The notes under the pieces: generated by a model
Databases searched by the model: none
What the model saw: only the letters and a program-made list of their open reading frames with translations
What the model was told of the DNA's origin: nothing
In this document: positions 3,373-21,709 of the stretch, in pieces
Position numbering within the stretch: position 1 is the stretch's first letter
Layout: each line of letters begins with the position of its first letter
Position numbers and translations under genes: made by a program
From: a virus
IMG/VR virus record: IMGVR_UViG_3300026534_000009
Coordinates: 1 to 23,294 of that record
Length of the DNA stretch: 23,294 bases
Direction: 5' to 3' (one strand)

Positions 3373-4316
3373 TATCTGCTAAACTCGACCGTCATAGACC
3401 ACCCACCCGAACTTAACGAATGAGTAACCGTTTTGATTTTATATACCCCGTTATTTTCGCCGTGGATAGTATTTACAAGTAGCATATTAGCACCCGCGTA
3501 GCAGATAGACCCCTCGGCAGTAAAAGAGCCTCTTATTATCCCCTCGTTTTCTTTGTCTAGTTTTGCTTGGGCTTTGATTTTAGCTTCTGTTTTATCTTTA
3601 AAAGACCCCGTATGATGTAATATAGGCTTACCATCTCCAACCTTTACTTTTATTTCTTTATTCTTTTTGTGGTCGTGATATTTGCACTCACACGATTTAT
3701 ATTCTTTTTTACTAGTCTCTTCTATATCTAAATTAGATACCGTTTCAGCGTCAAAAGTGAATAACGGTAATGTTTGTTTTTTTTGGACAAAAATTAAAGT
3801 CCGATTTTTAATCGTAAAAATCGCGTTATACTCATCAGCTAACTTTTTTAAAAAATCCAAGTCGCTTTGATTGGTTTGTGTTAAGTGTTTGATTTTTACC
3901 TCAAAGTCGCATTTAGACGCTAACCCGTTTTCTTTTGCTTTGAGTGCGATAATATCTTTTAGTGTGGTTTTCTCAAAAGTTTTAGATTTTTTTTCTTTTA
4001 TTTTACCTTTAAAATCGACACCCGTCGCACGAACCACTAAGACGCGGTTATCTATACGCCGTGAACCGTCAACAGTAAAAATACCACACGGCATAAACGG
4101 CACACCGTCATAACCAAAAAATAAAATCAACTCATCACCTTTTTTAGGCTTAATGTAGTCGAGGCTAACAATTGTTATCGTTACTTTGTCCGCGTGTGTA
4201 CCCTCTTGGTCTGTAAAATTGATAGATTTTATATCTTTACCAAGTGCTAAGCCAACCAAAGAGCCATTAGCCAATAAGAGATAAAAAGGCTTTTTTACGC
4301 TACTTGTTAGTCCCAT
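3372..4316 (-). CDS. D: Baseplate hub protein, P2 gpD family (late control D)
   Basis: P2 gpD-type proteins form the central hub of a contractile tail on which the spike sits. The 314-aa length, the early KPFYLLLANGSLVGLALGKD, the mid-protein segment SDLDFLKKLADEYNAIFTIK and the C-terminal SITC-type region with Gly/Thr turns fit the family (PF05954-like). It follows gene X with a 10-bp overlap and closes the U-X-D series, the order found in P2 and in R-type pyocin clusters. Start ATG has AAAGGTG about 10 bp upstream, inside gene X. Confidence 0.85.
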   Translation of the reverse strand: MGLTSSVKKPFYLLLANGSLVGLALGKDIKSINFTDQEGTHADKVTITIVSLDYIKPKKGDELILFFGYDGVPFMPCGIFTVDGSRRIDNRVLVVRATGVDFKGKIKEKKSKTFEKTTLKDIIALKAKENGLASKCDFEVKIKHLTQTNQSDLDFLKKLADEYNAIFTIKNRTLIFVQKKQTLPLFTFDAETVSNLDIEETSKKEYKSCECKYHDHKKNKEIKVKVGDGKPILHHTGSFKDKTEAKIKAQAKLDKENEGIIRGSFTAEGSICYAGANMLLVNTIHGENNGVYKIKTVTHSLSSGGWSMTVEFSR

Positions 4317-4525
4317 AGTGCTACACCTTTACCCGTTGGCAAATTCTCAATCTGATTAACTTTAAATTCATTTAGTAAAACCTTATCACCCGCGTTAAGA
4401 GTTACTTTGCTTAGTAGGTGTGGGTTATCCTCTAACACTTGCTTAACGGCTATTGTAGAGCCGTAAAAATCATAAACTATTTGGTCGATACGCTCACCAT
4501 CTTTAGCATGATAAACTTTACTCAT
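4307..4525 (-). CDS. X: Tail protein X (LysM-like)
   Basis: A 72-aa protein with the LysM-like pattern of P2 gpX: YHAKDGERIDQIVYDFYG, then an Asn-Pro pair (EDNPHL) and LNAGDKVLL. In contractile tails this small protein binds at the hub or tube end during baseplate assembly. It overlaps U (ATGA) and D, and has GGGGGCG before its ATG. Confidence 0.88.
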   Translation of the reverse strand: MSKVYHAKDGERIDQIVYDFYGSTIAVKQVLEDNPHLLSKVTLNAGDKVLLNEFKVNQIENLPTGKGVALWD

Positions 4526-4941
4526 ACAAACGCCCCCGCTACTGCACCTAAAATACTTAGACCTAGACCAAATCCACCTTTTGCACTTGTACGCTCTAAG
4601 GTTATATCGAATGTTTGCACCATATAAGAGCCATCGTTATTAAACTTATCTTTACCGCGTCTAATGTTTTTGATTAAGACATAGTAGTCATCTGTTTTGG
4701 TCGTAAGTCTTACGGGTTTCTTACGGTCTGCAATTGCTATGAGAGGGTCTATAGTACCCATAGGACGCTGAACCAATAAGCCTCTAAGTGTTAGGTGGTG
4801 TGACCGCCCGTTAACATCGTGAAAAGTGCTATCGTGTCCTAGTTGCTTATGTTCTGCAAAGTGATAGGTAAAAGTCTCTTCAAGCTGTTTAAAATGCGAC
4901 TCGTTCATAATAAAAGGAAATGAGTCTAATTTAGCCAACAT
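4522..4941 (-). CDS. U: Tail terminator/completion protein, P2 gpU family
   Basis: The 139-aa product, starting MLAKLDSFPF, carries the family signature HKQLGHDSTFHDVNGRSHHLTL with LRGLLV next to it and FDITLER near the C-terminus. P2 gpU-type proteins cap the tail at the head-proximal end or act in tail completion. I chose the ATG at 4941, which overlaps the muramidase stop (TAATG), over an upstream in-frame start at 4968. The C-terminus (GLGLSILGAVAGAF) is hydrophobic. Confidence 0.85.
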   Translation of the reverse strand: MLAKLDSFPFIMNESHFKQLEETFTYHFAEHKQLGHDSTFHDVNGRSHHLTLRGLLVQRPMGTIDPLIAIADRKKPVRLTTKTDDYYVLIKNIRRGKDKFNNDGSYMVQTFDITLERTSAKGGFGLGLSILGAVAGAFV

Positions 4942-5504
4942 TAGACAAACTCCGCACGATTGACCCAACCACGGTAAAAACGCTTTAGCGTTCTGTGCCT
5001 CTTAGAGAAGTAAGCCAAAAAGTGATAATAAGCTATCTCTACTTTGTCAAACTCTATACTAAATTTGTCGGGGTCATACTCATTGAGAGCCTTTAAAGTA
5101 ATAGCACCGACCCAACCATCAGACTTAACGCCTACTAGCTTTTGAGCCTTTTTAATGCCTTTACGCATACCAACATTAACACCAAATATAAAAATTTCCT
5201 CAGCGATTTTTTGAGAGTCCACAAAATCAAGTTTTGCCACATCCCAAAAACGGTGTTTATAAAATCCGTTTACTTTTTTTCTTAGAGTATCATCTTTAAA
5301 AAGCACCTTAGAGGCTTTACCCATAGAGCCATATTTTTTAAGTGCTGTATAGACGATACGCCAACCCATCCAACGCGGGTGAGCCTTTTCATAGATACCA
5401 CCCACGGTATAGCCTTTTTCACCCTTATTATAGTCTAGATAGTCCCTAGGACTGCTAAACTCTAATTGATTTAGTTTTAGCATTGCACTTTTAAAGTCTG
5501 CCAT
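4941..5504 (-). CDS. Endolysin, glycoside hydrolase 108 type N-acetylmuramidase
   Basis: This 187-aa protein fits the GH108 muramidases (secretion-activator-like phage lysozymes) that cut peptidoglycan at the end of the lytic cycle. E29 in KGEKGYTVGGIY is the probable catalytic Glu, followed by the typical W/H-containing segment (AHPRWMGW). Residues about 115-145 (KGIKKAQKLVGVKSDGWVGA) match the peptidoglycan-binding domain that closes this family. There is no signal peptide, so export depends on the holin encoded at 6095. It sits between the spanins and tail gene U, with TAATG overlaps on both sides. Confidence 0.8.
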   Translation of the reverse strand: MADFKSAMLKLNQLEFSSPRDYLDYNKGEKGYTVGGIYEKAHPRWMGWRIVYTALKKYGSMGKASKVLFKDDTLRKKVNGFYKHRFWDVAKLDFVDSQKIAEEIFIFGVNVGMRKGIKKAQKLVGVKSDGWVGAITLKALNEYDPDKFSIEFDKVEIAYYHFLAYFSKRHRTLKRFYRGWVNRAEFV

Positions 5505-5824
5505 TAGTTACCCCTTTTGGATTGATTTACATCAAGATATTTTTTTTCATATCTATCTAGCTTTGTTTCATATCCTTTTATTACCCTCTCTAGCTTTCTG
5601 TTTTGAGCCTTTAAGATAAGAATATTTTTAAAATCCATACACGCACCGATATTGACCCATTGACCACCCTTTAGAGCTTGGCACTCTTTGTAACCCGTGA
5701 CCCTCTTTTTTTTGGGTCTGTCAATCTTTTTAATTTTTGGATATTTACACGGCGTTTTTATGTATGCAGTAGAACAACCACTAAATGCTAAAACTAAAAG
5801 TGTCATCATCGTTTTTTTTAACAT
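5504..5824 (-). CDS. Outer-membrane spanin lipoprotein (Rz1-like)
   Basis: A 106-aa protein with a short basic N-terminus, a hydrophobic segment and a lipobox, LAFSGCS, giving a lipidated Cys at about residue 17. After it comes a Lys/Pro-rich stretch and a C-terminal coiled coil (about residues 68-100). Its start lies 44 bp inside the end of the inner spanin gene in another frame, the embedded arrangement typical of Rz/Rz1 pairs. Together they fuse the two membranes in the last step of lysis. It is longer than most Rz1 proteins. Start ATG has GGGGGTC upstream. Confidence 0.75.
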   Translation of the reverse strand: MLKKTMMTLLVLAFSGCSTAYIKTPCKYPKIKKIDRPKKKRVTGYKECQALKGGQWVNIGACMDFKNILILKAQNRKLERVIKGYETKLDRYEKKYLDVNQSKRGN

Positions 5825-6098
5825 CTTGACCCCCTTTTTTGGTCTGCAAATCTATAGCCTCAAAGTCTTTAACTACCTCTAAATTTTCCTCTATATCCTC
5901 GACTTCAAAAGTGCTTCTTTTTACTACCTCTTTTAACTCTTCTTTTTTAGTATCTATCTCAACTTGTTTACGCTTTGCTTCTCTCTTAAGCTCTTCTATC
6001 TCTTTACTCTTTAAGCCCAATATAACACTAAGAACCGTTACAATAAAAAGAACTATAGCCCAAGCGTAACGCTTTATATTTGTAAAAAAATTAATCAT
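5781..6098 (-). CDS. Inner-membrane spanin (Rz-like)
   Basis: This 105-aa protein has one N-terminal membrane span (residues about 10-29, WAIVLFIVTVLSVILGL) followed by a long charged coiled coil (about 30-80) that would lie in the periplasm. That topology and the overlap with a lipoprotein gene identify an i-spanin. It overlaps the holin gene (ATGA). The Asp-rich last 15 residues (DVKKNDDDTF) are not part of the coiled coil and may contact the partner. Confidence 0.75.
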   Translation of the reverse strand: MINFFTNIKRYAWAIVLFIVTVLSVILGLKSKEIEELKREAKRKQVEIDTKKEELKEVVKRSTFEVEDIEENLEVVKDFEAIDLQTKKGGQDVKKNDDDTFSFSI

Positions 6099-6361
6099 CT
6101 TTTGCCCCTATATTGATTAAACATTTCAGCGATTTTATTAATCGCACCCGCCCCAACTAACACACCGATAAAAGTATAGATATTTAGCTCTACAAGATTA
6201 TCTAATACGCTTTTTAACTTTTCAGTTTCTGAGGGATAAATAATCACTTTGACTACTACTAAAACCAATAGTAGTAAAAAGGTGTATCGTGATATTTTTG
6301 TCGATAATTTTTCTTTTTGTTTAGCCGTTGACTGTGGCTCTTGTTGCTTTTTTTCGTCCAT
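6095..6361 (-). CDS. Holin-like membrane protein
   Basis: An 88-aa protein, starting MDEKKQQEPQST, with a charged N-terminus and two hydrophobic segments (YTFLLLLVLVVVKVIIY and YTFIGVLVGAGAI), ending in a basic tail NQYRGKR. Size, two spans and the position before spanins and endolysin indicate the holin that triggers lysis. I chose the ATG at 6361, which overlaps the nuclease stop (TAATG) and has AAGGA at a good distance; a TTG nine bases upstream is possible. The family was not recognised from sequence alone. Confidence 0.7.
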   Translation of the reverse strand: MDEKKQQEPQSTAKQKEKLSTKISRYTFLLLLVLVVVKVIIYPSETEKLKSVLDNLVELNIYTFIGVLVGAGAINKIAEMFNQYRGKR

Positions 6362-6849
6362 TACAAACAATCCTTACTAATGAGATACCAGATACCTTTT
6401 TTTTTGGTTTTGGCTCTTTTTTCTATAGCGTATAAAACGCGTTTCGTTTTGTAGTCTATATCTGCGTGGGCGTAAACTTGGGCGTAACCATCTCGAACTA
6501 TTTTGAAGTTAAAACCCTTTACCCATACTAGATAACGCCCGTAATAATCCGTACCAACCCGCAAAAAAGAGATACTAGACCCGACGGGCAAATTATGAGT
6601 TGTGTATATCTTTGATAAATTACCAAGGTGTAAAAGTTCACGCTCAGTAAGCTTGCACTCTTTGGACTGCTTACGGCTCTTTTTGCTTTTATAGCTTTCG
6701 GGTGTCTCTATACCAATCAATCTAGCTTTAAACACCACACCCTTATAACTAATCTCTATCGTATCGCCGTCTATGATACGATGTACCGTTCCAATATCCC
6801 ACGCCATTAAATAACCACCTAATACTAAAAATAATAATAATTTACCCAT
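6361..6849 (-). CDS. Secreted thermonuclease-like (SNase family) nuclease
   Basis: Staphylococcal nuclease-type fold (Ca-dependent cleavage of DNA and RNA). Residues 1-16 form a signal peptide (GKLLLFLVLGGYLMAW). The family landmarks follow: VHRIIDGDTI (D27, D29), ARLIGIETPES (R43, E48, E51) and DYYGRYLVWV (R105), equal to the metal ligands and the R35/E43/R87 catalytic set of SNase, with Glu replacing Asp at the GIDTPE position. The C-terminal KRAKTKKKGIW also fits. It would act outside the cytoplasm. It is wedged between tape measure and holin with TAATG overlaps, so it is made with the tail. Possible jobs: destroying incoming or released DNA, or cargo of the particle. Campylobacter prophages are known to carry a DNase (dns in CJIE1) that blocks natural transformation, a useful parallel though a different family. 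Confidence 0.85.
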   Translation of the reverse strand: MGKLLLFLVLGGYLMAWDIGTVHRIIDGDTIEISYKGVVFKARLIGIETPESYKSKKSRKQSKECKLTERELLHLGNLSKIYTTHNLPVGSSISFLRVGTDYYGRYLVWVKGFNFKIVRDGYAQVYAHADIDYKTKRVLYAIEKRAKTKKKGIWYLISKDCL

Positions 6850-9287
6850 TACGCTATATCCTCATAACTTCTATTTTCTTTGTCATAATTAATTTCTTTC
6901 ATTGCTTTTTCTACTTGGGCTACAAAGTGGTCATTATCAAATTTACCATCAGTTGTTTTGACATGGACATTTATAGCCCCTACATTTACTTTAGTGGTCC
7001 TTGGATGACTTACCCCACCCGCACTAGCTAAAGTAGTTTCGTGGCGGGTATTCACATCATTAAAGGTAGTTTGTGGCTTGTAGTAGCTCGGTGTCTTATG
7101 TGTAGATACCGACGCGTAAGTCGTGTTATTGACGGGCTTTAACGACGCATGAGGCTTACTTATTGCATCTCTTAGACTCGTTGGGTGAGCCTTTAAGGTA
7201 GGGGCTTTATCATAAAATCTACTTTGTTGTCTATGTGGTTTTAAAGCCTTTGGTATATTTGCTTCACGCTCACTAAGAGACCTCGAACCCTTGGGCGGTT
7301 TATCGCTACTACTAAAGATATTTTTAGCACCGTTCCAAGCTGACGAAGTCCACTTTTTAACCGTGCCAACCATTGAGCCTATCCAAGCGAATTTTTTAGC
7401 TATCCAATTAAAAAAAGACGCAAAAGGTGCTTTTATTTTGGCTACCAATTTACTAAAAAAGCCCGTGATACCTGACCAATTTTTAGCTATCATGCCTATA
7501 GGAGACCACGCCCAAACTTTGGCTAAAAATGCTTTACCTCGTTTGAAGTAGCCCTTAATACCCGTCCACATACTGCTAAAAAATGGTTTTATCCGTCCCC
7601 AATTTTGATAAATTTTATAAGCACCATAGGCTATAGCCCCAATGGCTAACCCTATTGGGTTGAGTAAAAAAGCTCTACCCAACCAAAGCACCGCACGACC
7701 CGCAAACCTAGCACCAAAGCTTAAAACCCTCATAGCTGTTTTAGACTTTGCTACCCAACCTATAAACGACCCCGCACCCTTGACTAAGCCTATAAAAGGT
7801 GAAGCCAACCACGATAACGCTTTAATCGCTACCATCGCACCACCTACTTTAAGAGCTATACCGCCGTAAGTGTGTATTAACTCTTTATTCTCGGTGTAAA
7901 ATTTACGCGTCCACGCTATAGCTTTTGGTATCGTCTCTAAAAAAGATATGTAAGTCCCCTTTAATTGGTCACCAAGCAAAATAGCCTCAGCGGTTATCTT
8001 ATTTTTTACCGCCGTTTCTCTAGCTTCACTTGTAGCCATTTTTACGGCATACTCAGACGCGACGGCTAACATCATTTTTTTATCTGCGACGGTCGCTAAA
8101 GATTTATCTAAAGTATCCAATTTGCTACCCATATTTGAGATTACATTAGCCCCTTGACTGCCAAAAGTCTTAATCATCTCTTTATCACTCATGGAACTTT
8201 TTATCTCTTTAATAATAGACTTAAGCTCACCCGCCCCTTTTTTCTGTAGCCGTGAATAAAAACCGAATTTGTCATCAGTCTTTTTAAATCTATCGGTCAA
8301 GATTTTAAAAGAAGTCGCGGCTAATTCAGGTGAAACTTCAAGAGTATTCATAAAATTTGAAATAGCGGCGGCGTTCTGAGGTTTGAACTTTAAGCCACGA
8401 AATACGCCCGATAATCTGCTAGTAGTATTTATCAAGTCTCTAGCTGAGTTAGAGCCGTTGTTTTCTAGGTGAGTAAAGGCATTAGTAAGCACCGAAATTT
8501 TACGGATAGGTATATCCATACGCTCGGACATTTTCGCAAAATCACGCCCGACTTCTGAGGTATCTAAATCCATAGCTACCGACGCTTGGGCTATATCTGT
8601 CGTAAATTGTGGCAAATCTTTAATTTTTACACCACTTCTACCGCCCCCCGCTTGAATTTGTGCTATTTCTGAGGGTTCAAGTAGTGAGCCTTTAGGAGAA
8701 GAAACAATTTTTAGAATATTTCTTTTTAACATAACAATCTGTTTGTCATCTGCGTTGGTCGCTTTTTTTACATCTGCCATAGATGACTCAAATACCATAG
8801 ATTTACGGACGGGGTTAACTTGGGCTACCGCACCAATAACCGCACCCGTAGCCACACCACCCGCAAAGACGGCGGTATTTTTTATCTTACTAGAGGCATA
8901 ACCACGAACCCGACCCGTTACGCGTTTAGCCCTTGAAGCTTTAGACGCGTGTGTCATTGATTGATTGTATCTATTGGCACTATGAGCGATTGAGGTCATA
9001 TCTTTTTTGACCTCAGATATAGAGCGTTTTAGTGGATTAGCGTCAAAGGCTGACGCGTCCATCTCACGCCTAAACTTTTTGGCTGATTGGTGCATACGGC
9101 TAAGGTGATTAACGGTGGTGTGTAGTTGATTATTGAGCGTTGGAAATGATACGCCCTTAAAAAGTTTGATTTTTTCGACTGCTTTAGCGTAAGTATGGAT
9201 ATCCTTAAAAGAGGCTTGCATGAAGCCCGAACCCTTTATAGCTGAGTCCCAAACTATGTTAAACGATAAAGCACCACTACCCGCCAT
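6849..9287 (-). CDS. T: Tail tape measure protein (P2 gpT-like)
   Basis: At 812 aa this is the largest gene of the operon. The N-terminal third is rich in helices (residues about 60-120), followed by the TP901/P2-type segment VFESSMADVKKATNADDKQ and Q/G-rich loops (EIAQIQAGGGRSGVK), a central hydrophobic region (about 480-570, with WLASPFIGLVKGAGSFIGW and LLNPIGLAIGAIAYGAYKIY), then W-rich repeats (WAWSPIGMIAKNW) and a low-complexity His/Ser/Thr-rich tail. Tape measure proteins set tail length; by the rough rule of 0.15 nm per residue the tail would be about 120 nm (inference). Start ATG has AAAAAAGGCG upstream. Confidence 0.9.
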   Translation of the reverse strand: MAGSGALSFNIVWDSAIKGSGFMQASFKDIHTYAKAVEKIKLFKGVSFPTLNNQLHTTVNHLSRMHQSAKKFRREMDASAFDANPLKRSISEVKKDMTSIAHSANRYNQSMTHASKASRAKRVTGRVRGYASSKIKNTAVFAGGVATGAVIGAVAQVNPVRKSMVFESSMADVKKATNADDKQIVMLKRNILKIVSSPKGSLLEPSEIAQIQAGGGRSGVKIKDLPQFTTDIAQASVAMDLDTSEVGRDFAKMSERMDIPIRKISVLTNAFTHLENNGSNSARDLINTTSRLSGVFRGLKFKPQNAAAISNFMNTLEVSPELAATSFKILTDRFKKTDDKFGFYSRLQKKGAGELKSIIKEIKSSMSDKEMIKTFGSQGANVISNMGSKLDTLDKSLATVADKKMMLAVASEYAVKMATSEARETAVKNKITAEAILLGDQLKGTYISFLETIPKAIAWTRKFYTENKELIHTYGGIALKVGGAMVAIKALSWLASPFIGLVKGAGSFIGWVAKSKTAMRVLSFGARFAGRAVLWLGRAFLLNPIGLAIGAIAYGAYKIYQNWGRIKPFFSSMWTGIKGYFKRGKAFLAKVWAWSPIGMIAKNWSGITGFFSKLVAKIKAPFASFFNWIAKKFAWIGSMVGTVKKWTSSAWNGAKNIFSSSDKPPKGSRSLSEREANIPKALKPHRQQSRFYDKAPTLKAHPTSLRDAISKPHASLKPVNNTTYASVSTHKTPSYYKPQTTFNDVNTRHETTLASAGGVSHPRTTKVNVGAINVHVKTTDGKFDNDHFVAQVEKAMKEINYDKENRSYEDIA

Positions 9288-9339
9288 AAATACGCCTTTT
9301 TTAAGGCATATAATGGCTAAAATTGAATATTTTTTAAAG

Positions 9340-9357
9340 CCATATAAGCATATATGG
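9340..9357. repeat. Inverted repeat in the gap before the tape measure gene
   Basis: CCATATA (9340-9346) and TATATGG (9351-9357) form a perfect 7-bp inverted repeat with a 4-base loop, in the 118-bp AT-rich gap between two operon genes. It may be a regulator site or an mRNA hairpin; -10-like sequences on the minus strand nearby would allow an internal promoter. Confidence 0.4.
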
Positions 9358-9405
9358 AAAAAATATATAAAATTGTTTATAATAGCCTACAAAAAGAGGG
9401 TATTT

Positions 9406-9873
9406 CTAAAAGGTCATAGCCTCTAATTTTACTTCTTTTTCTTTTAACTCTTTGACTTTTTTGTCTGTTTTTTCTACATCGCAAATCTCTAAAGCTTTAT
9501 TTATAAAAGGCTGTAAGCTGATATTGTATTTTTGATTTTTATCTTTTATCCAAAAAGGATTATCTCTTTTTAGCTCTGCATAGTGTCGTTTTGATTTTCC
9601 ATTGAGTCCATACTTGATACCCTCTTTATCATAATCTATCACATAGATTAGGGGGTATCTATCACACCCAAGAGTTACACTATCGGAGCTAAACGCCCAA
9701 GTTGAGTTAATATCTTTTTTTGATATTTTAAGCTCTTTTTTGACCCAAATAGTAGCCTCTAGCTGAGAGCGTATATCTTTTAAATCTTGGTCGCGTTTTG
9801 CCTCAGCCTTTGACGGTGAAAAGTACCAAACTAAACCACCAAACACTAAAAGCCCTATTAATAAATCTTTCAT
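9406..9873 (-). CDS. Membrane-anchored protein of unknown function
   Basis: A 155-aa protein with an N-terminal membrane anchor (MKDLLIGLLVFGGLVWYF), then a charged helix (AEAKRDQDLKDIRSQLEA), a globular part with two Cys (LGCDRYPLIYVIDYDKEGIKYG and EICDVEK) and a Lys/Glu-rich end. I do not recognise the family. I chose the ATG at 9873, which has AAGG six bases upstream, over the in-frame ATG at 9888. Its place between E/E' and the tape measure gene is not a standard P2 position, so it is an accessory of this element, perhaps superinfection-related or a periplasmic factor. Confidence 0.65.
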   Translation of the reverse strand: MKDLLIGLLVFGGLVWYFSPSKAEAKRDQDLKDIRSQLEATIWVKKELKISKKDINSTWAFSSDSVTLGCDRYPLIYVIDYDKEGIKYGLNGKSKRHYAELKRDNPFWIKDKNQKYNISLQPFINKALEICDVEKTDKKVKELKEKEVKLEAMTF

Positions 9874-9932
9874 TATCTGCCTTAACATAGTTATTTTAGA
9901 AAATTATATCATAAGAAGATTACGCGTGAGAC

Positions 9933-10363
9933 TTACATTTGAAGCCCACGCGTTTTAAGTTCCATTTCGTGTATTTTAACGGCTTGTTTGTAGTATTTTA
10001 GCCATTCACTCACCGTCATAGCCTCTTGACGGTTTATATCTATGTGTAGCCGATAGGATATGAAGCTTACACCCTCTATGCGTGTATCTTCATCTATGAT
10101 AAAAAACTGTTATACGCCTCCGTAATAGCATAAGCGTCTTTTAGTGCTAGTTGGTCTAACTCTTCTACTTCAATATCACATAGATTACAGAATAAACGCT
10201 CTTGTAGTTCATCTTCTGAGGGGATAGACTCTCTAGCTATTTTTTCATCTTTAATAGTAGGCTCACGCATTGTAAGCGTATCTTTCCACACACCACTAAA
10301 CGGATACTCGCGACTTAGCTTAATCGTCTTTGGTTCTGCATATTGTACTTTTTTGTTACCCAT
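9933..10363 (-). CDS. Tail assembly chaperone gpE+E', -1 frameshift product
   Basis: Near the end of the short E frame the heptamer T TTT TTA (10106-10100, minus strand) stands in the correct phase for -1 slippage. Reading on in the -1 frame gives 55 more codons (beginning IIDEDTRIEGVSFISYRLHI, ending KTRGLQM) to TAA at 9935-9933, for a product of about 143 aa. P2 E/E', lambda G/GT and relatives all make a long chaperone this way, and both forms are needed to load the tape measure. The extension has no start or ribosome site of its own, and it exactly fills what would otherwise be a 200-bp gap. Confidence 0.75.
10094..10363 (-). CDS. E: Tail assembly chaperone gpE (short form)
   Basis: An 89-aa protein with the tail-chaperone pattern of P2 gpE / Mu gp41 (PF10109-like): KTIKLSREYPFSGVWKDTLT followed by MREPTIKDEKIARE and a helical C-terminal half. 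P2 gpE is similar in length. It binds the tape measure during tube assembly. It starts 1 bp after the upstream gene; its last codons overlap the slippery heptamer that gives E+E'. Confidence 0.8.
   Translation of the reverse strand: MGNKKVQYAEPKTIKLSREYPFSGVWKDTLTMREPTIKDEKIARESIPSEDELQERLFCNLCDIEVEELDQLALKDAYAITEAYNSFLS
10100..10106 (-). promoter_or_regulatory. Slippery heptamer for programmed -1 frameshift
   Basis: T TTT TTA in the zero frame of gene E (codons AGT TTT TTA), the X XXY YYZ type used by many tail chaperone genes (P2 uses TTTTTTG). The zero-frame stop TAG is one codon further on. Confidence 0.75.
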
Positions 10364-10364
10364 T

Positions 10365-10601
10365 TTATAGCCCCTTAAATTTTACTTTTGTTACACTCAA
10401 TACTTTACCTTGGATATACTCCACCACTTCAACACTCACGCCATTATCGTATGTTTTGACTTTTTCGTCTGTGTCATACTTTCTAAGGCGTTTAATATCA
10501 TCTATATACTTATCGCCCACCGTACGACTTGGGATATCAAGGTCAATGATAATGTCACCCTCACCCTCTTCTAGTTGTACGACTTCTTTTCTTTTTGCCA
10601 T
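10365..10601 (-). CDS. Small tail-operon protein of unknown function (78 aa)
   Basis: An acidic 78-aa protein (EEGEGDIIIDLDIPSRTVGD near the N-terminus) whose second half is beta-rich (YDNGVSVEVVEYIQGKVLSV). I do not recognise the family. It lies directly upstream of gene E with a 1-bp gap and has AAGGGTAAC before its ATG. Position between the tube genes and the tail chaperone suggests a role in tail assembly. Confidence 0.65.
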   Translation of the reverse strand: MAKRKEVVQLEEGEGDIIIDLDIPSRTVGDKYIDDIKRLRKYDTDEKVKTYDNGVSVEVVEYIQGKVLSVTKVKFKGL

Positions 10602-10717
10602 TTGTTACCCTTTTTGGTAGATTTTAAAGGCGGTTTTAGCCTTAGACAAAGATAACCTATAGTTACCCTCTACTAAAGCCGATAAAGAGATAAATTATCT
10701 CTCTATCGTTGCACCAC
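10602..10717 (-). other. Intergenic gap within the late operon
   Basis: No gene is visible. The gap holds the long palindrome at 10680-10708 and the ribosome binding site of the next gene. Confidence 0.6.
10680..10708. repeat. 29-nt near-perfect palindrome
   Basis: CGATAAAGAGATAA (10680-10693), one central A, and TTATCTCTCTATCG (10695-10708) pair at 13 of 14 positions. On the minus-strand transcript it makes a strong hairpin 10 bases after the ACP-HU stop codon. No T-run follows, so it is more likely an RNA processing, stability or attenuation element, or a protein site, than a terminator. Its odd length argues against a telomere-resolution site. Confidence 0.75.
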
Positions 10718-11275
10718 TTACTTGTTAAGAGCGTTGTTAAACTCGTCAGAACCCTCAAACTTGACTTTTGTCACCGCTGGAAATGCTTCTGTTTTCTTAG
10801 TCGCTGGGTTATATCTGTTTCTAGCCTTGAACTCAACGGCTGTAAATGTTCCGAAGTGTCTCATTTTCACATCTTTACCCGCTACTACTGCATTTTTTAC
10901 TCTATCTTCAAAGATGTCAAGGATTTTTCCTACCTCTTCAATGTTTACACCCGTAACCCCTGCTTTTACCGCCTCAGTGTGTACCTCGTGAGCCATTTCG
11001 TTTTCTGTTACTGTATTTTTTGCCATCGTTTTTTCCTTTTCGTTTAGTTTGTTTTGAATATATGTTAGGGCGTTGCCCACGCTTTTTATAGAGTCTAAAT
11101 CTTTATCCTCTACCTCAATATCATATTTATCCTCAACCGCTGTTACTACATCTATAGCGTCCAATGAGTCAAGACCCAAATCATCTACAAAGAGAGTATT
11201 TTCAGTTATGCCGTCATCTTCTATGCCTAGAGTAGCGACGATTAAGGCTATAAGGTCTTTTAACATCTTGACCAT
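10718..11275 (-). CDS. Acyl carrier protein fused to an HU/IHF-like DNA-binding protein
   Basis: One 185-aa frame holds two unrelated domains. Residues 4-80 are an acyl carrier protein: helix 1 MLKDLIALIVATLGI, then DDLGLDSLDAIDVVTAVEDK, where S37 of the DSL motif is the expected 4'-phosphopantetheine site, and an acidic helix. Residues 84-185 are HU-like: EVGKILDIFEDRVKNAV, KMRHFGTFTAVEFKARNRYN and PATKKTEAFPAVTKVKF, the RNP arm and C-terminal strand of the HU/IHF family. M84 (ATG 11026) has AAAAGGA at a good distance, so the HU part may also be made alone. The fusion start may be 11275 or 11266. The gene sits between tail tube FII and a small tail gene, not near any lipid or polyketide genes. 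Function of either part in tail assembly is unknown. Confidence 0.85.
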   Translation of the reverse strand: MVKMLKDLIALIVATLGIEDDGITENTLFVDDLGLDSLDAIDVVTAVEDKYDIEVEDKDLDSIKSVGNALTYIQNKLNEKEKTMAKNTVTENEMAHEVHTEAVKAGVTGVNIEEVGKILDIFEDRVKNAVVAGKDVKMRHFGTFTAVEFKARNRYNPATKKTEAFPAVTKVKFEGSDEFNNALNK

Positions 11276-11278
11276 TCT

Positions 11279-11767
11279 CTAGTTAACATTTTGGCGATAC
11301 TCTGCCAACAAGTCCACGCCGTCAATGACCATTACATCATTAAGACGGTCATAGACCACCTCGGGCTTACCGTCAACCGTTTTGGTGTATCTGTCCACTT
11401 TGATTTTAACTTTACGCGTTACCTCCTTACCCTCTTCTAGTGTACCATCGTCTAGCTCGTGGATTTCACCTTGAACCGTGATAACTAAAGGTACATCTGT
11501 CGCGTCGCGTCTAATGTTTCCCTTTAGTACCAATGGTAATCTATCTTTAGGCTTTAAGTTATTTTTGTTGTACTCAGCCATAACGATATTAGAATATTTT
11601 TCAAAACTAATCGTCATATACTGAGCTTTAAGCTTCCCGCTTGATATGTCATCTACTACATCCATATCTAGCTTAGGTTGCTCGACCTTGCCCGTAACTC
11701 CAAGGTGTCCAACACCTTGGACGGACGCGTTTAGACCGTTTAAAATATCTTTATCAGTTCTTGCCAT
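11279..11767 (-). CDS. FII: Major tail tube protein (P2 FII family)
   Basis: The 162-aa product resembles P2 FII (PF04985): the MTISFEKYSN-type strand, a central YNKNNLKPKDRLPLVLKGNI, the EIHELDDGTLEEGKEVTRKV segment typical of the family, and a C-terminal strand MVIDGVDLLAEYRQNV. It polymerises into the inner tube that is driven through the target envelope. Start ATG has GGAGG; it follows the sheath gene after 5 bp. Confidence 0.9.
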   Translation of the reverse strand: MARTDKDILNGLNASVQGVGHLGVTGKVEQPKLDMDVVDDISSGKLKAQYMTISFEKYSNIVMAEYNKNNLKPKDRLPLVLKGNIRRDATDVPLVITVQGEIHELDDGTLEEGKEVTRKVKIKVDRYTKTVDGKPEVVYDRLNDVMVIDGVDLLAEYRQNVN

Positions 11768-11772
11768 TGTTT

Positions 11773-12966
11773 TTAACCTCCGATTATTTTCATAAGGATA
11801 GGACTAAATCTATCCGTAAAGCTACACTCAACCTCAAAGCGTCTAACTGTAGGCATATTCTGCATTTCAGCCACAAGGTAAAATTTACCCGCTGTTAGTG
11901 CCTCTTTGGTGTTTTTCTCTGGATGCCAAAACACATCATAACCCACTAAAACATTAGCACCTTTAAGAGATAGACAAAGCCCATCTACTGAGTCTTTGGC
12001 ATGGATAAGCACATCCGCACCACGGTCTATAGCCCAAAACACACCCTCTTGGACTGCTTCACCGATACGGTCAAACACTCTCACCCGCTCTAGGCTTTGC
12101 CAAATGCTGTCGGGGTCTGTAGTCTCAAAGCCCCAAAGTCTAAAGCCTTTGTAGTTAATCACCGTAGCGATACCAAGCGTTCTAAGTCTATCAGCCTCGC
12201 ACTCTTGACCCGCGATAAACTCAATCGGTCTAGCCGTTCCGCTGATACCTTGCATTACGCGATTAGAGGCACTGTTAGCCCACCCGTACTCTTTGAGTCC
12301 GTCGGAGTGTGCTATCATACCCGCCACCCTTGCACTCATTGGCTCAGTGATTGTCTTGTTAGCTGTCGTATCCCATACTTTTACATACGGGTCACACACC
12401 ATAAGCCGACGCGTTCCGAAGTCTTTCATTTTAGCTGTTGCTTCTGCTTCATCTTTGGCATTAAGGTCAACGATACCCGTAGCCGATAAAGATGTAGCTA
12501 CTGCCTCAATCTCTGCTTTTACATCGCCGTCATGGCTGAACCGTGGAGCGATAATCAAGTTTGATTTAACGCCATAAACCGCCATAGCTGTTTTGGCTTT
12601 GTCGATACCGTCAATAATCGCACTTTTTACTTTTGTCTCTTCATAAAAAAGCTCAGCTTGTTTTTTGCTTTGTGCTTCTGTAATCGGTACAATATGCACG
12701 ACTAGCGGACTAAGTACGCCTTGGTCATTAATACCATCGACCGCACCGCTGATAGTTCCTTTTGATTTATCAAAGTCACTTTTTGCTTTTTCTGCATTGC
12801 CATAGTGCATAATGTAGTTATGCTCTTTTAGCTTATCTTGCACCTCTTTACCTAGTGAGGCTAAAACAACGGTCGCTATTAAAAAAATCGGTGTTGATGA
12901 TTTTATTCTAATAGGACGCGAAGCGTTAGCACTCGTTGTAATATTTACACCGTAGTTACTACTCAT
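11773..12966 (-). CDS. FI: Tail sheath protein (P2 FI family)
   Basis: A 397-aa contractile sheath protein. It begins with a short strand (YGVNITTSANASRPI), then TPIFLIATV, a Rossmann-like part (LNAKDEAEATAKMKDFGTRR, LMVCDPYVKVWDT), the segment MSARVAGMIAHSDGLKEYGWANSASNRVM, which is the sheath hallmark, GFRLWGFETTDPDSIW, FDRIGEAVQEGVFW and a C-terminal strand FEVECSFTDRFSPILMK. Length is close to P2 FI (396 aa). Presence of a sheath proves a contractile rather than a siphovirus-type tail. Confidence 0.95.
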   Translation of the reverse strand: MSSNYGVNITTSANASRPIRIKSSTPIFLIATVVLASLGKEVQDKLKEHNYIMHYGNAEKAKSDFDKSKGTISGAVDGINDQGVLSPLVVHIVPITEAQSKKQAELFYEETKVKSAIIDGIDKAKTAMAVYGVKSNLIIAPRFSHDGDVKAEIEAVATSLSATGIVDLNAKDEAEATAKMKDFGTRRLMVCDPYVKVWDTTANKTITEPMSARVAGMIAHSDGLKEYGWANSASNRVMQGISGTARPIEFIAGQECEADRLRTLGIATVINYKGFRLWGFETTDPDSIWQSLERVRVFDRIGEAVQEGVFWAIDRGADVLIHAKDSVDGLCLSLKGANVLVGYDVFWHPEKNTKEALTAGKFYLVAEMQNMPTVRRFEVECSFTDRFSPILMKIIGG

Positions 12967-13199
12967 TATATACCCCTTTGTACTGATATGGTTTTGTTTT
13001 TAGGGTCGTAATTGATACCATCACCGCACCCACCGCGTGTTATATTTCCGTTATCATCTGCCCATTCAAAATCGCAACACATCCACGCGACAATAGTCCC
13101 GTCATCTTGCTTTTTGTAGAGGTAGTGATTTGTTTCGTCGCTAAAATGCTCTTTTAACTCATCTAAATGTAAAATCGCATTTGAAGTTGTTTTACTCAT
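12966..13199 (-). CDS. Small protein of unknown function (77 aa)
   Basis: An acidic 77-aa protein with a Cys pair and aromatic residues in the middle (WMCCDFEWADDNGNITRGGC). I do not recognise the family. It overlaps the DUF1353 gene (ATGA) and ends on the sheath start (TAATG), so it is firmly part of the operon. It may belong to the fibre/sheath accessory set; no function is proposed. Confidence 0.65.
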   Translation of the reverse strand: MSKTTSNAILHLDELKEHFSDETNHYLYKKQDDGTIVAWMCCDFEWADDNGNITRGGCGDGINYDPKNKTISVQRGI

Positions 13200-13522
13200 C
13201 TTTTTACTCCATATCTTAGTCTATGATAAAGCTTTACAGCCCTTATCATCGCTCTTGTTTTAAAACTATCCTCTATCTCAAGAAGCAACTTTTCAAACCA
13301 AACATCTGCCAAACGATACTGCTCTTTATCGCACAACCAATCATGCACGATAACAGCAGGTAGATATTTCGGTTTAAAGGGTGGTATAAACCACCAAAAA
13401 AGCCTCGGTATATTTGCACCGTTACTCTTGTATCCCTTTGGAATAACAAAACTCTCACTTATCTTGTAAGGCTTTGCAAGAACTACTTTGTTATCTCTTG
13501 TAGGATAAAAGATAGGTTGCAT
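13196..13522 (-). CDS. DUF1353-family phage protein
   Basis: A 108-aa protein matching DUF1353 (PF07087): FVIPKGYKSNGANIPRLFWW, then AVIVHDWLCDKEQYRLADVWFEKLL with the conserved HDxL and ADxxF elements. The family is common in phage genomes beside tail fibre or lysis genes; its role is unknown, and the conserved His/Asp suggest a possible enzymatic site. Start ATG follows GAGG of the previous gene end. Confidence 0.8.
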   Translation of the reverse strand: MQPIFYPTRDNKVVLAKPYKISESFVIPKGYKSNGANIPRLFWWFIPPFKPKYLPAVIVHDWLCDKEQYRLADVWFEKLLLEIEDSFKTRAMIRAVKLYHRLRYGVKR

Positions 13523-13524
13523 TT

Positions 13525-13971
13525 TTAAGCCTCTTTAAGCAAATCATCTTTAAGTTTTCTATACTTAAAGTAAATCTCTTTAATTTTTTGTGAACCTTTT
13601 TTTATTAAAACACCAAAATCAGCTTTAGAAAAACTTACAGTTTGATTATTTACATCAATCCACTCTATCTTTTCTTTATCTCCAGCGATATTAAAAGCTA
13701 CTGCCATAGTTTTGATAACATCTTCATTCATAAAAATATCATCAATAACAAAGCCTTTTAGCTCTTCGTTTCGTTGCTTATCTAGTTCTTTTATTGCACT
13801 CTCTATATTTTTTACAATCTCAACATCTGCTAAACTCAAGCCAAGCTCTTTTAGCTCATCTTTAAAAGATTGTTTTTTAAGAATATCTCTATCAACAGAC
13901 TTAAAAACAACCCTATATTTATCATCCATACTTAGATATTTTTCTTTTTTTATAATTACATTAAATTTCAT
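13525..13971 (-). CDS. Tail fibre assembly-like protein (DUF4376-like)
   Basis: This 148-aa, Lys-rich protein lies directly after the fibre gene where a fibre chaperone is expected. Its C-terminal part (EWIDVNNQTVSFSKADFGVL followed by a long basic helix KGSQKIKEIYFKYRKLKDDL) resembles DUF4376, found in fibre assembly proteins. The middle is helical and acidic. GGAGG precedes the ATG. Like the fibre gene before it, it is very poor in CpG and richer in A/T than the rest of the operon. Confidence 0.6.
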   Translation of the reverse strand: MKFNVIIKKEKYLSMDDKYRVVFKSVDRDILKKQSFKDELKELGLSLADVEIVKNIESAIKELDKQRNEELKGFVIDDIFMNEDVIKTMAVAFNIAGDKEKIEWIDVNNQTVSFSKADFGVLIKKGSQKIKEIYFKYRKLKDDLLKEA

Positions 13972-13972
13972 T

Positions 13973-14581
13973 TTATGCCTCCAAAATTTCTAAAGAGTTT
14001 TTTACCTCTTCATTAAGAATGCCATCACCTTCATCGCCTCTTACATCCTCATAAGGAATATATTTAAGCTCATGGCAATTTGACCAACCATCAAAAAGAA
14101 GATAACTAGATTGATTTGTAAAATAGACATCTAATCCACCATAAAGTTTACCATTGTAAGTAAATTTGCAAGGTTTTGCATGGTCTGCATCTAAAGCTAT
14201 TTTATACAAATCCATATCCTCTGAGTTATATTTTGCAATAGCTTTTATATCTATAACACATGAACTTTGAACACAGCAACCATTAAGCCTGACTAAACTA
14301 AATCTGCCCTCTGTGTAGCTAAAAGATGATTTCCTAGAACCATTACCATCAGTAAGTTCAACTAATGGAAGAACACATTTATAGTAATCACTTCTACTAG
14401 ATATAACACCTTTATATTTTTTAAGCCCGATACCTGCACTTTCAAAATTATTTTTCCAACTCTCCAACTCTTGTAACTTATCAGATACCTGTCTATTCCA
14501 TTTTGCTATCTGCCCTGTTGCCAGATTTGGTATTCTTTTCACTTCTTGCACCAAGTCAGCTACTGCACTTGCTAAACTCAT
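13973..14581 (-). CDS. Probable tail fibre tip / receptor-binding protein
   Basis: A 202-aa protein with an N-terminal coiled coil (ASAVADLVQEVKRIPNLATG, QVSDKLQELESWKNNFES) that could trimerise, then a beta-rich C-terminal domain with several Cys (YYKCVLPLVEL, LNGCCVQSSCVIDIK, KPCKFTYNGKLYGGLDVYFT). This design and the place after the gpH-like gene and before a fibre chaperone point to the host-recognition tip. The domain itself was not recognised. The gene has almost no CpG, unlike its neighbours, which suggests exchange from another source. Confidence 0.55.
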   Translation of the reverse strand: MSLASAVADLVQEVKRIPNLATGQIAKWNRQVSDKLQELESWKNNFESAGIGLKKYKGVISSRSDYYKCVLPLVELTDGNGSRKSSFSYTEGRFSLVRLNGCCVQSSCVIDIKAIAKYNSEDMDLYKIALDADHAKPCKFTYNGKLYGGLDVYFTNQSSYLLFDGWSNCHELKYIPYEDVRGDEGDGILNEEVKNSLEILEA

Positions 14582-14583
14582 TT

Positions 14584-15138
14584 TTAACCTCCGTTTACTT
14601 GTTTGATTTTTGCTTCCAAGCTATCTGCTACCCTCTGTGCTTCTAAAGAAAAAACACTTATTGTAGGTAAGAAAAATAGCTCTTCAGCTTCTATCGCTGT
14701 TAGGTATTTAGAACTTCTAAACACCACCTCACCCGCGTTACCCTTGATGGGTATCTTTATCGGGAATTGACCGCCTATCTGCTCGTTAAGATAGATAATA
14801 GGGGTCTTTGCTACTGTGGCTACTAGCTTATCATCACTCATAAGGATTACGCCGTATAAATGCTTATCGTAGCTATCTTCATTGGTCATATCTACAACCG
14901 CCGTAAAGATACCGCTATCGTCAAAATAAGTAGCATCAGCGTCATACTCTGCAAAGATATATTTTTGCACTTTTGCATAAGTTAACCCCGCCGTATTCTC
15001 TAGTAGAGCTTTTAGCGTTTTATCGTCCAATCCGTCCACACCGATTAGCCCTACTCTGTTAAACTTATCTCTCATTTTAGAGTTTAAAAAGTCTAAGAGT
15101 TGGGCATTTGGTATAGCGGTTAAACCTCTATTTGCCAT
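14584..15138 (-). CDS. Tail-collar fibre N-terminal protein (gpH-like)
   Basis: The 184-aa protein occupies the place of P2 gpH after gpI. Its second half (HLYGVILMSDDKLVATVAKT, then PIIYLNEQIGGQFPIKIPIK) matches the N-terminal tail-collar fibre domain (DUF3751-like) that attaches fibres to the baseplate. It ends after the attachment domain plus a helix, and the following gene would supply the tip: a split fibre instead of the single long gpH of P2. Start ATG has AGGAGG and lies 19 bp inside the end of gene I. Confidence 0.65.
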   Translation of the reverse strand: MANRGLTAIPNAQLLDFLNSKMRDKFNRVGLIGVDGLDDKTLKALLENTAGLTYAKVQKYIFAEYDADATYFDDSGIFTAVVDMTNEDSYDKHLYGVILMSDDKLVATVAKTPIIYLNEQIGGQFPIKIPIKGNAGEVVFRSSKYLTAIEAEELFFLPTISVFSLEAQRVADSLEAKIKQVNGG

Positions 15139-15794
15139 TGGTAACCTCCTTTTAAATTAGTATCGCTGAGCGTTACACTCTCATTGATATTTTTTCTTAG
15201 TGTTGGGTCAAACACCCAACCGACACTAACCCCCGTATCATCACCCATAATCACCTCGTTTATATCCAAGTAGGGGTGAAGCATTACGGGGCTATTTAGC
15301 GTACTTACCGACACCGTAGCGATTATTGGTGGCATACGCACCTTAAAGCTGTTTAGGTGGCTTCTTACGTTTTTAGCGTTATCTATAAGCCTTTTAGCGG
15401 TGCTAAATCGCTTGGAGCTGTAAACTTTTGACGGGTCTTGGCTTATCGTGACTTCTACATCAAAAAGCCCCACCGTTAAACCTACATCAAACCACTCTTT
15501 TAACTCAGCGTCGCTAAACATCACCGCTATAGTTTTTTTCACGGCGTACACCGTGCCTTTGTGGCGGTGTATTTCAAAGGCATTATTTAGATACGCTCTG
15601 GCTTCATCATCTGTAAGACCCGAAATATCCACACTATAGGCTATAGCCAAGTGAGACAACAAAGAGCTATTAGCCTCTAAAGGTAGAGTTGATAGATTTA
15701 CTTTACGGTTTAGACCGTCCACTAAAAAATTAGCGTTTTTTTGGTCATCTGCTGAGGCATTTGGTGGGAGCAGATTAAATCTATTTTTACTCAT
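15120..15794 (-). CDS. I: Baseplate protein gpI (tail protein I)
   Basis: A 224-aa protein with the gpI pattern (PF09684): FNLLPPNASADDQKNANFLV, the LSHLAIAYSVDISGL part, ARAYLNNAFEIHRHKGTVYA and VKKTIAVMFSDAELKEWFDV. gpI joins gpJ and gpW as a wedge of the baseplate. It overlaps J and H by a few bases. The C-terminal third is less conserved and may bind the fibres. Confidence 0.88.
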   Translation of the reverse strand: MSKNRFNLLPPNASADDQKNANFLVDGLNRKVNLSTLPLEANSSLLSHLAIAYSVDISGLTDDEARAYLNNAFEIHRHKGTVYAVKKTIAVMFSDAELKEWFDVGLTVGLFDVEVTISQDPSKVYSSKRFSTAKRLIDNAKNVRSHLNSFKVRMPPIIATVSVSTLNSPVMLHPYLDINEVIMGDDTGVSVGWVFDPTLRKNINESVTLSDTNLKGGYQWQIEV

Positions 15795-16905
15795 ATGTAG
15801 CCTCTTTGTATCTTAGATTTAACGCTTTGATTTTGATAATCTCGGTCTTATCTGTTATTGTGTCTCTAAAGCTTGTATTTACTTTATAAACGCCGTTTAC
15901 TTGTAGATTTTTGATTACTTCTGTGCGGGTAAGGTGCTGACCAATAACAAAGCTTTCACGCTCAAAATTTGCTTTTATCATAGCGTCTGCTTCTGACTGA
16001 GTGCCAATATCAAAAAGCTCTATCTCGGCGTTAATCGTGACCTCTTTAATTCCCGCACTATAGACGCAAACATCATCGCCCAACGGGCGGACTTTTTCGT
16101 CACTTAGATTAGCCTCTACTCTATCAATCATCACACCATCGACACCCTCTTTAGCGTATAGATAAATATTTACTTCAAGAGTGCCTTTTTTACCATATAC
16201 CACCGCGTCGGTTATTCTTTCGTCTGCTGAATAAATCCAATAAAGATAAGAGTCAACGCTACCCGCCGTTGAGAATTTGCCTAAAGCTATAATAGCTCTA
16301 ACCCTTAGAGCGTCATCACTCTCTGCATCTGAGCCGTAGGCGTAATCTTCTGTAGCGACTGCCTCAGCTACAAAAGGTAGCGGGGTCGTGATAATCTCGG
16401 TTTTAAGTTTGGTCGTTTCGATAAACGCGTCTAACTCTACTTTGACAATAACTGATTTTTGACCCGCTTTAATAGTTGTATCTTCTAATACATAGGCTTT
16501 ATAGGTACCGTCATCATCTATAAGCTCGGTTAAGCTTGGAATAGTTACATCGTAGCTTAAAGTATCACTAAGCTCAAATCTATAGTTAGCGTATGGCTTA
16601 GAGCCTTTTAAACGCCACACATCTAAAAAAGCCGTCAAGTGGTCTAAAGCCTCACCCGTAGCCGTAGTTATGAGCAGTTGCTTTATGATATAGTTATCGT
16701 GGATTTGCCCTTGATACTGCTTGTAAGTAAGGACTCTTAAATCTTTCATATATCTATCAGACTCTAACGGCTTATAATTTGGTAGATACTCTTTGAGTCT
16801 GTCTATATTCTCTTGTAGTAGCTGATTATAGTCTTTTACCTCTACAATCTTTGGAGCGGGTAGCTCTTGGATTTGAGTTAGTATATTTTTATTATGCAAA
16901 GCCAT
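15787..16905 (-). CDS. J: Baseplate wedge protein gpJ (Baseplate J-like)
   Basis: The 372-aa product shows the Baseplate_J landmarks: TGEALDHLTAFLDVWRLKGS, the strand-rich middle with TTIKAGQKSVIVKVELDAF, EDYAYGSDAESDDALRVRAI and AGSVDSYLYWIYSADERITD, with RTEVIKNLQVNGVYKV near the end. It forms the wedge core that opens on contraction. I chose the ATG at 16905 (MALHNKNIL), six bases after AAGGGG, over an upstream in-frame start at 16932. It overlaps W by 14 bp. Confidence 0.92.
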   Translation of the reverse strand: MALHNKNILTQIQELPAPKIVEVKDYNQLLQENIDRLKEYLPNYKPLESDRYMKDLRVLTYKQYQGQIHDNYIIKQLLITTATGEALDHLTAFLDVWRLKGSKPYANYRFELSDTLSYDVTIPSLTELIDDDGTYKAYVLEDTTIKAGQKSVIVKVELDAFIETTKLKTEIITTPLPFVAEAVATEDYAYGSDAESDDALRVRAIIALGKFSTAGSVDSYLYWIYSADERITDAVVYGKKGTLEVNIYLYAKEGVDGVMIDRVEANLSDEKVRPLGDDVCVYSAGIKEVTINAEIELFDIGTQSEADAMIKANFERESFVIGQHLTRTEVIKNLQVNGVYKVNTSFRDTITDKTEIIKIKALNLRYKEATYE

Positions 16906-17227
16906 TAAAAACCCCTTGAATATAGCTACCATCTGTAAAGTTTAAGCGTGTAGATATTTCGCCTTTTACTGCGTCAACCCCTAACACTTTTACACTCTCT
17001 AAGACTTTTCTAGTCTCCCAAACAGACGCGTCCATCAAAACCCGTCTATAGTCGATTAGAAACTCATCATCTATACGACGGTCTATAAGCTCGTGAAAAT
17101 CACACCCAAACTCTGGCAACATTGCAACCGTCTTTTTGGGCGTAGTAAAGATGTTCTCAAAACTCTCTAATATAGAAACCTCAAACCCATCACTTTTAGC
17201 CTCTAAAGAAAAAGTAACTTGACTCAT
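16892..17227 (-). CDS. W: Baseplate protein gpW (gp25-like)
   Basis: A 111-aa protein of the GPW/gp25 family, a small baseplate wedge protein with a lysozyme-like fold lacking activity. Recognised by SILESFENIFTTPKKTVAML followed by EFGCDFHELIDRRIDDEF and YRRVLMDASVWETR. It overlaps V at ATGA and J by 14 bp. Confidence 0.9.
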   Translation of the reverse strand: MSQVTFSLEAKSDGFEVSILESFENIFTTPKKTVAMLPEFGCDFHELIDRRIDDEFLIDYRRVLMDASVWETRKVLESVKVLGVDAVKGEISTRLNFTDGSYIQGVFNGFA

Positions 17228-17742
17228 TTAGTAGCCTTTACCGTGCTTGACCCGTCGCTATGCGGTGCGTTTGTGTAGGGGCAAATAGACTCAGCGGTTA
17301 TCACACCTTGACCCCCCTCACCTAAATTAATATCAGAGCTATCTACTAGCACTTTATCCGCCTTTACTGTAGCCTCTGAACATATAATATTTAACTTACT
17401 AGGTGAGTCGATTTTAAGCTCACCATCGCGTAGGTCAAATGTTACCGTCGTGCCATCGCCAAATTCGACGACCTCAGTATCATCACCCGCCCCGCTTGGT
17501 GGCTTGAAATTATCATAATATAGACCTTTTAGGACAAAGCCGTCACGGTTAGAGCCGTGGGGGTTCAGTATTAGCACTTGGTCACCTACATTGGAGGGGC
17601 TAAAGGACTTTTTAGACTTGGTAGCGTTAGGAGCTATCACGGGTAGCCAATCGGTCACGCGTCCATCTACTTTAACTTTAGCTAAACCGTCGCTATTTTT
17701 AACCTCGGTAATAGTGCCTATTTGTATGCTACTATTTGACAT
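17224..17742 (-). CDS. V: Tail spike / baseplate assembly protein gpV
   Basis: A 172-aa membrane-piercing spike protein. It has an N-terminal OB-fold (IGTITEVKNSDGLAKVKVDG, WLPVIAP, VGDQVLILNP), then a stretch of short beta repeats (GDGTTVTFDLRDGELKIDSP) that form the triple helix, and a tip CPYTNAPHSDGSSTVKATK that contains one His where P2-type spikes usually have an iron-binding HxH. I chose ATG 17742; an in-frame TTG at 17748 is possible. It overlaps the upstream holin-like gene by 11 bp. Confidence 0.9.
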   Translation of the reverse strand: MSNSSIQIGTITEVKNSDGLAKVKVDGRVTDWLPVIAPNATKSKKSFSPSNVGDQVLILNPHGSNRDGFVLKGLYYDNFKPPSGAGDDTEVVEFGDGTTVTFDLRDGELKIDSPSKLNIICSEATVKADKVLVDSSDINLGEGGQGVITAESICPYTNAPHSDGSSTVKATK

Positions 17743-21707: not shown

Positions 21708-21709
21708 AA

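Follow-up and report, generated by a model that had tools for sequence, protein, structure and literature searches.

What is an acyl carrier protein (ACP) doing in one gene with an HU-like DNA-binding protein, in the middle of a contractile tail operon? The gene is a minus-strand ORF (10718–11275) in a 23,294-nucleotide virus record, IMGVR_UViG_3300026534_000009, which we analysed over its whole length and refer to as the window. It encodes 185 aa as listed, or 182 aa if translation starts at 11266. A sequence-only reading had placed ACP and HU in one frame here, and the frame from 11275 to 10718 is indeed open throughout, with both domains matched: residues 7–73 match PP-binding (PF00550, 43.3 bits versus a cut-off of 20.8) and residues 108–184 match Bac_DNA_binding (PF00216, 53.9 bits versus 22.4), each at more than twice the curated cut-off. 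The corresponding PHROGs matches were phrog_5934 for the ACP part and phrog_379 (DNA binding) for the HU part. The ACP domain (11048–11266, minus strand) has its Ser37 codon, the predicted 4′-phosphopantetheine site, at 11165–11167 (minus strand) in a DSL motif with the context DDLGLDSLD. The HU/IHF domain (10718–11026, minus strand) retains FGTF and an R-x-R-Y-N-P-x-T arm, with the Asn-Pro codons that supply the DNA-wedge proline at 10805–10810 (minus strand). The true ACP start is more likely 11266 (M4) than 11275 because the sequences of three relatives start at the position that corresponds to MLKDL.

The surrounding genes, all on the same strand, place the fusion between an FII-type tube gene and a tail chaperone, which bears out the tail-operon location read from the sequence. 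Upstream lie the sheath gene (11773–12966, phrog_23, 51% identity to a Helicobacter pullorum prophage) and the tail tube gene FII (11279–11767), which matches phrog_55, a family labelled 'head closure' in PHROGs, and aligns with the annotated FII/tube genes of relatives. Downstream are an ORF of 78 aa with no family match (10365–10601), which is present in the fusion clade, and the tail assembly chaperone gene (10094–10363, phrog_166). We found the same fusion over nearly its full length in three other IMG/VR contigs, at 94, 93, and about 64% protein identity, and in each fusion contig inspected the order was sheath, tube, ACP-HU, an ORF of 77–80 aa, and chaperone. Three of the four fusion contigs are close to one another. 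Because four separately assembled contigs agree, a sequencing error or chimera is ruled out, and the fusion is a genuine, conserved gene.

Ser37, whose conservation the sequence-only reading had made a point to check, is invariant in all four fusions, as are the DSLDAID stretch around it and the HU arm RYNPAT. The linker between the domains is free of stops down to ~64% identity, and its indels keep the frame in all four contigs. Pairwise dN/dS among the three close contigs was 0.04–0.09 for both ACP and HU; against contig L004 it was 0.33–0.35 for ACP and 0.10–0.15 for HU where computable. Since the values against L004 are higher for ACP and still low, the ACP part, judged by its codons, is evolving faster than HU yet is still constrained.

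Is the fusion then a common feature of such tails? The sequence-only reading had proposed looking for it in other Campylobacterota tail clusters, and there the expectation failed: in annotated Helicobacter, Campylobacter, and Sulfurimonas relatives, chaperone comes after tube, separated by no more than a short unrelated ORF, and neither ACP nor HU is present at that place. A scan based on the sheath gave 62 loci. ACP was found in 0 of 44 records of sheath relatives and HU in two of the 44 (contigs L034 and L093), plus L033, a contig that ends within its HU gene. Annotated relatives and sheath-relative scans together rule out ACP-HU as a general Campylobacterota tail feature. In L034 (1733–2041) and L093 (46–354), a stand-alone HU gene lies precisely between tube and chaperone, at the same site after the tube gene as the fusion. 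It shares 49% identity and a homologous start with the HU part of the fusion, whereas these operons lack both the ACP and the 78-aa ORF before the chaperone. On the gene content between tube and chaperone in these relatives, two lineages share HU at the tail site, and one of them has ACP joined to HU.

Beyond tail operons, a tblastn search of 50,697 phage records returned only ACP matches, none spanning 80% of the fusion, and no fusion was found in plasmid records. A scan of GTDB representatives, which used exact 8-residue patterns that distant fusions may escape, found only stand-alone ACPs. Our literature search returned no report of ACP-HU fusions, and the combination, made of two well-known parts, is apparently unreported before. 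Stand-alone ACPs are frequent in viral contigs, one IMG/VR scan giving 104 places, and HU accompanied them in none of 50 such contigs. Like the ACP of the fusion, the stand-alone phage ACPs (phrog_5934; Erythrobacter phage R6L and roseobacter prophages) are phage-encoded and have the DSL motif, but they are free-standing. Phage ACPs have been interpreted as auxiliary metabolic genes, not always with fab-type neighbours (PMC8224337), and the function of phage-encoded ACP has been termed unclear (PMC5463345). Separately, adjacent pairs of ACP-like ORFs occur in three other viral contigs (L112, 924–1450; L113, 5866–6392; L128, 5914–6373).

These distributions bear on the strongest rival to the explanation we prefer below, namely that two independent activities, an extra acyl carrier and an ordinary phage nucleoid protein, share one ORF, two translationally coupled genes having lost the stop between them and the resulting fusion being tolerated. 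Stand-alone viral ACPs are common and have a proposed metabolic role (PMC8224337), L034 and L093 have a stand-alone HU gene where the fusion sits, and the linker is short and mostly encodes the HU ribosome site. Against this, the frame has stayed open in four contigs despite linker indels, ACP alone would need cleavage or a frameshift to be released, there are no fab or acyl genes nearby, and no other ACP-bearing viral contig of the 50 pairs ACP with HU. We regard two independent activities as a serious contender that is nevertheless somewhat unlikely.

Release of ACP by a programmed frameshift ending it before HU was rejected: no slippery heptamer lies in frame at the A-rich junction, where AAA AAC falls in another frame. 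The junction differs in contig L003, and although one shifted frame does contain stops, no observation favours their use.

We then compared the ACP part with known carriers. Against the NCBIfam models of fatty-acid-synthesis (FAS) ACPs it scored just under the cut-offs (PRK00982, 68.7 versus 71 bits; TIGR00517, 64.5 versus 70.45 bits) and, being also fused, it falls outside the free-standing AcpP equivalog. The DSL serine is invariant across the four fusions and a 33-sequence alignment that includes stand-alone viral and bacterial ACPs. A first AF2 model built on the four fusion sequences was shallow (pLDDT 54.6) and was discarded, and an alignment that added stand-alone HU misaligned HU with the ACPs and was not used. 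The retained model, built on the 33 sequences (mean pLDDT 81.1), gave the structure prediction that had been proposed for this gene: the ACP part is predicted to adopt a confident ACP four-helix fold, with pLDDT mostly 82–94, the HU part is weaker (blocks down to pLDDT 51), and the orientation of the domains is not to be trusted (pTM 0.48). Foldseek matched the ACP part to solved FAS ACPs at an rmsd of about 1.0–1.4 Å (TMt 0.8–0.9), including Helicobacter pylori ACP, MukBEF-bound ACP, and the ACP in a complex with holo-ACP synthase (1f80, TMt 0.89). Sequence identity to the Aquifex, E. coli, and H. pylori ACPs is ~35%. The four-helix fold, the DSL serine, and the acidity are shared with FAS-type AcpP; the joined HU and the lack of fab neighbours are not. 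The sequence-only reading had reported no acyl-transferase or synthase genes nearby, and no such gene, fab-type or otherwise acyl-enzyme, was recognised among the window genes scanned. ACPs with a DSL motif belong to families that are known substrates of holo-ACP synthase. By family and predicted fold, the ACP part looks like an ACP of fatty acid synthesis that the host holo-ACP synthase could modify.

In NCBIfam the HU part lies close to IHF and HU. It scored 31.8 bits against IHF-alpha (cut-off 111) and 26.3 against HU-beta (157), both below the NCBIfam equivalog cut-offs, and its sequence matches among structures were HU, IHF, TF1, and Hbb. With HU/IHF proteins (PF00216), phrog_379, and SPO1 TF1 it shares FGTF and the Asn-Pro arm, and the intercalating-proline residues N73 and P74 are invariant in the fusions and in stand-alone HU. 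It differs from HU/IHF and phage HU-like proteins in being joined to an ACP, in its longer N-terminus and fewer basic residues, and in its place in a tail operon. HU proteins are known to dimerise and bend DNA. The arm stretch has a net charge of +6, but the whole domain has only +1 in the window and −1 in L004, and several basic arm residues of the canonical HU motif are presumably replaced. Because the domain is barely basic and basic arm residues are presumably replaced, the affinity for DNA predicted from this sequence is uncertain.

The contrast in charge between the two parts raises the possibility that ACP serves as an acidic regulatory or solubility arm of HU, DNA-mimic-like and autoinhibitory, for which phosphopantetheine would be dispensable; how much long product is made relative to short would then set the strength of DNA binding. 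The ACP part is strongly acidic (net −13, pI 4.05) next to a near-neutral HU (+1), and an internal start would permit mixed dimers. However, a plain acidic arm needs neither an invariant DSL serine nor a recognition helix so close to those of FAS ACPs, and we consider this reading improbable.

Can HU also be made alone? The sequence-only reading had proposed an internal start with its own ribosome site, and both proved to be conserved. A Shine-Dalgarno-like AAAGGA (11034–11039, minus strand) lies 7 nt before an in-frame ATG at 11026, from which a putative HU-only product of 102 aa would be translated. The AAGGA core and the spacing are identical in the four fusions, which all read AAGGA, 7 nt, ATG GCA AAA at the aligned point. 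This start is homologous to that of the stand-alone HU gene, which in L034 reads AAGGAG-ATGTT-ATG GCA AAA. A Shine-Dalgarno match of at least 5 bases precedes 20 of the 34 gene starts in the window and 9 of the 113 internal ATGs in window genes; with a 6-base match and 7-nt spacing, the 11026 ATG has the best ribosome site of those nine by match and spacing. Between the window and L004, 24 of 27 codons are unchanged in the 3′ half of ACP and the junction, compared with 48 of 86 (Fisher p = 0.002; scan-corrected p = 0.023; a post hoc comparison). This low synonymous change fits a constrained translation start, and it may also have other causes. Given that the internal start signals are conserved and match the start of stand-alone HU, two products, ACP-HU and HU alone, are likely.

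A well-supported internal start also suits a neutral fusion, in which HU from this start would be the sole working product and ACP a passenger. The purine-rich site seen before the ACP start in relatives (GGCGGG or GGAGGG) is absent from the window, which would fit such a passenger. Purifying selection on ACP (dN/dS 0.04–0.35) and its invariant serine argue the other way, and we think a neutral fusion very unlikely.

Around the fusion we also looked at RNA structure. No structured RNA was predicted at the internal start (z = 0.26), and no Rfam family matched the window. Right after the stop codon of the fusion and before the chaperone genes, folding predicts two tandem RNA hairpins (10639–10708, minus strand), within a 119-nt stretch with a folding z of −6.35. 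Tandem hairpins are predicted in all four fusion contigs; L034 and L093 each have one hairpin at this position. From the predicted folds, the transcript may undergo processing or attenuation between the fusion and the chaperone; if so, ACP-HU would group with the abundant sheath and tube messages.

Does the ACP instead act on the tail itself? In this alternative, its acyl group would acylate a tail or lysis protein, or anchor a protein at the membrane. The position directly after the tube gene of a contractile-tail operon is suggestive, and some protein acylations elsewhere (HlyC type) draw their acyl group from ACP. Yet no acyltransferase was recognised in the window, an HU fusion is unexpected for such a role, and annotated relatives share the tail layout without ACP or HU at that place. 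The sequence-only suggestion that a tail protein is acylated found neither an enzyme nor a candidate substrate, and we judge it the least probable of the readings considered.

The explanation that we prefer, tentatively and at less than an even chance, is a dimer, made late, that binds DNA and uses its ACP arm to dock or titrate a host partner of ACP. Starting from the fusion, the conserved serine, the internal start signals, and the operon position, all of which can be read directly in the DNA, we infer the following steps. The single tail-operon gene would give the whole ACP-HU chain and also, by initiation at the internal ATG (11026), HU without ACP; the HU parts would pair and bind DNA, so that a dimer could carry no ACP arm, one, or two; and host holo-ACP synthase would attach phosphopantetheine to the serine. 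The holo-ACP arm, held on DNA, would then dock or titrate a host protein that normally recognises ACP, and capture of this partner would tune the behaviour of the nucleoid or of the element during tail making. We favour this explanation because both domains score above cut-off, the frame is open, dN/dS is low, and the serine is invariant, and also because of the internal start signals and the low synonymous change at the junction. It is weakened because no partner was identified, no acyl enzyme is nearby, only four contigs have the fusion, and the HU domain is barely basic.

A precedent for ACP as the partner of a DNA-organising protein is the MukBEF-AcpP complex (PMC8602292). That association is non-covalent, whereas the ACP of the fusion is covalently joined. 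To our knowledge MukB is gammaproteobacterial and would not be expected in the group to which the host probably belongs, and since the closest tail relatives are Campylobacterota, the analogy with MukB is weak.

A bolder version, in which the hybrid couples to DNA, while tails are produced, a host pathway that recognises ACP, be it fatty-acid enzymes or some other partner of ACP, and the internal start sets the dosage of the arm, seems rather unlikely to us; on that reading, a DNA-bound hybrid of ACP and nucleoid protein would be a kind of regulator not described before. Should the ACP arm act on DNA, a virus-like element would have a new means of linking genome organisation to lipid metabolism or to ACP partners. 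The in-gene start, if true, would offer a clean case of one ORF giving a tagged and an untagged DNA-binding protein. The gene is also a compact one in which to test the purpose of phage-encoded ACP, which the literature terms unclear (PMC5463345).

What kind of element carries such a gene? The closest tail relatives of the window are Campylobacterota, and the host of this small linear virus-like element is probably a relative of Campylobacter or Helicobacter. A protelomerase-domain protein of 486 aa is encoded at 401–1861 (plus strand; PF16684, 31.8 bits versus 27) and gave a tblastn match to the protelomerase of Halomonas phage phiHAP-1; a protelomerase is also present in both fusion contigs that reach that region. 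A ParA-like ATPase gene (1858–2427, plus strand) follows directly, and the element also bears primase-like genes. Inverted terminal repeats lie at 1–150 and 23050–23294, with units GTTATTCAC...GTGAATAAC, and contig G001 is collinear over almost the whole window, the right ends falling within a few bases of each other. By sequence, the terminal repeats look like the hairpin telomeres of a linear plasmid. The contractile tail and lysis module is complete (3372–18097, minus strand), and no head or packaging genes (capsid, portal, terminase) were recognised among the window ORFs scanned, the window covering nearly all of the element. Protelomerase, ParA, terminal repeats, and tail and lysis genes without recognised head genes suggest a linear element with hairpin ends that has tail and lysis functions and lacks a head; it may be a satellite or a linear plasmid resembling a tailocin.

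Some minor features of these elements were also seen. Tad2 is an anti-Thoeris protein family, and the N-terminus of the protelomerase protein has two nearly identical Tad2-like repeats, the first matched by PF11195; the fusion of Tad2 to a protelomerase is odd because of this anti-Thoeris membership. The layout differs in contig G002 (the same as L181; 1–754 compared with window positions 21567–21708 and 3214): ~600 nt separate its replication-gene end from the tail operon's 3′ end, and protelomerase and ParA are not between. In the lysis region of the window, a secreted-looking staphylococcal-nuclease-like protein (PF00565) is encoded at 6361–6849 (minus strand), and a PF00565 nuclease-like gene is also present in the HU-only contig L093 (3618–4103).
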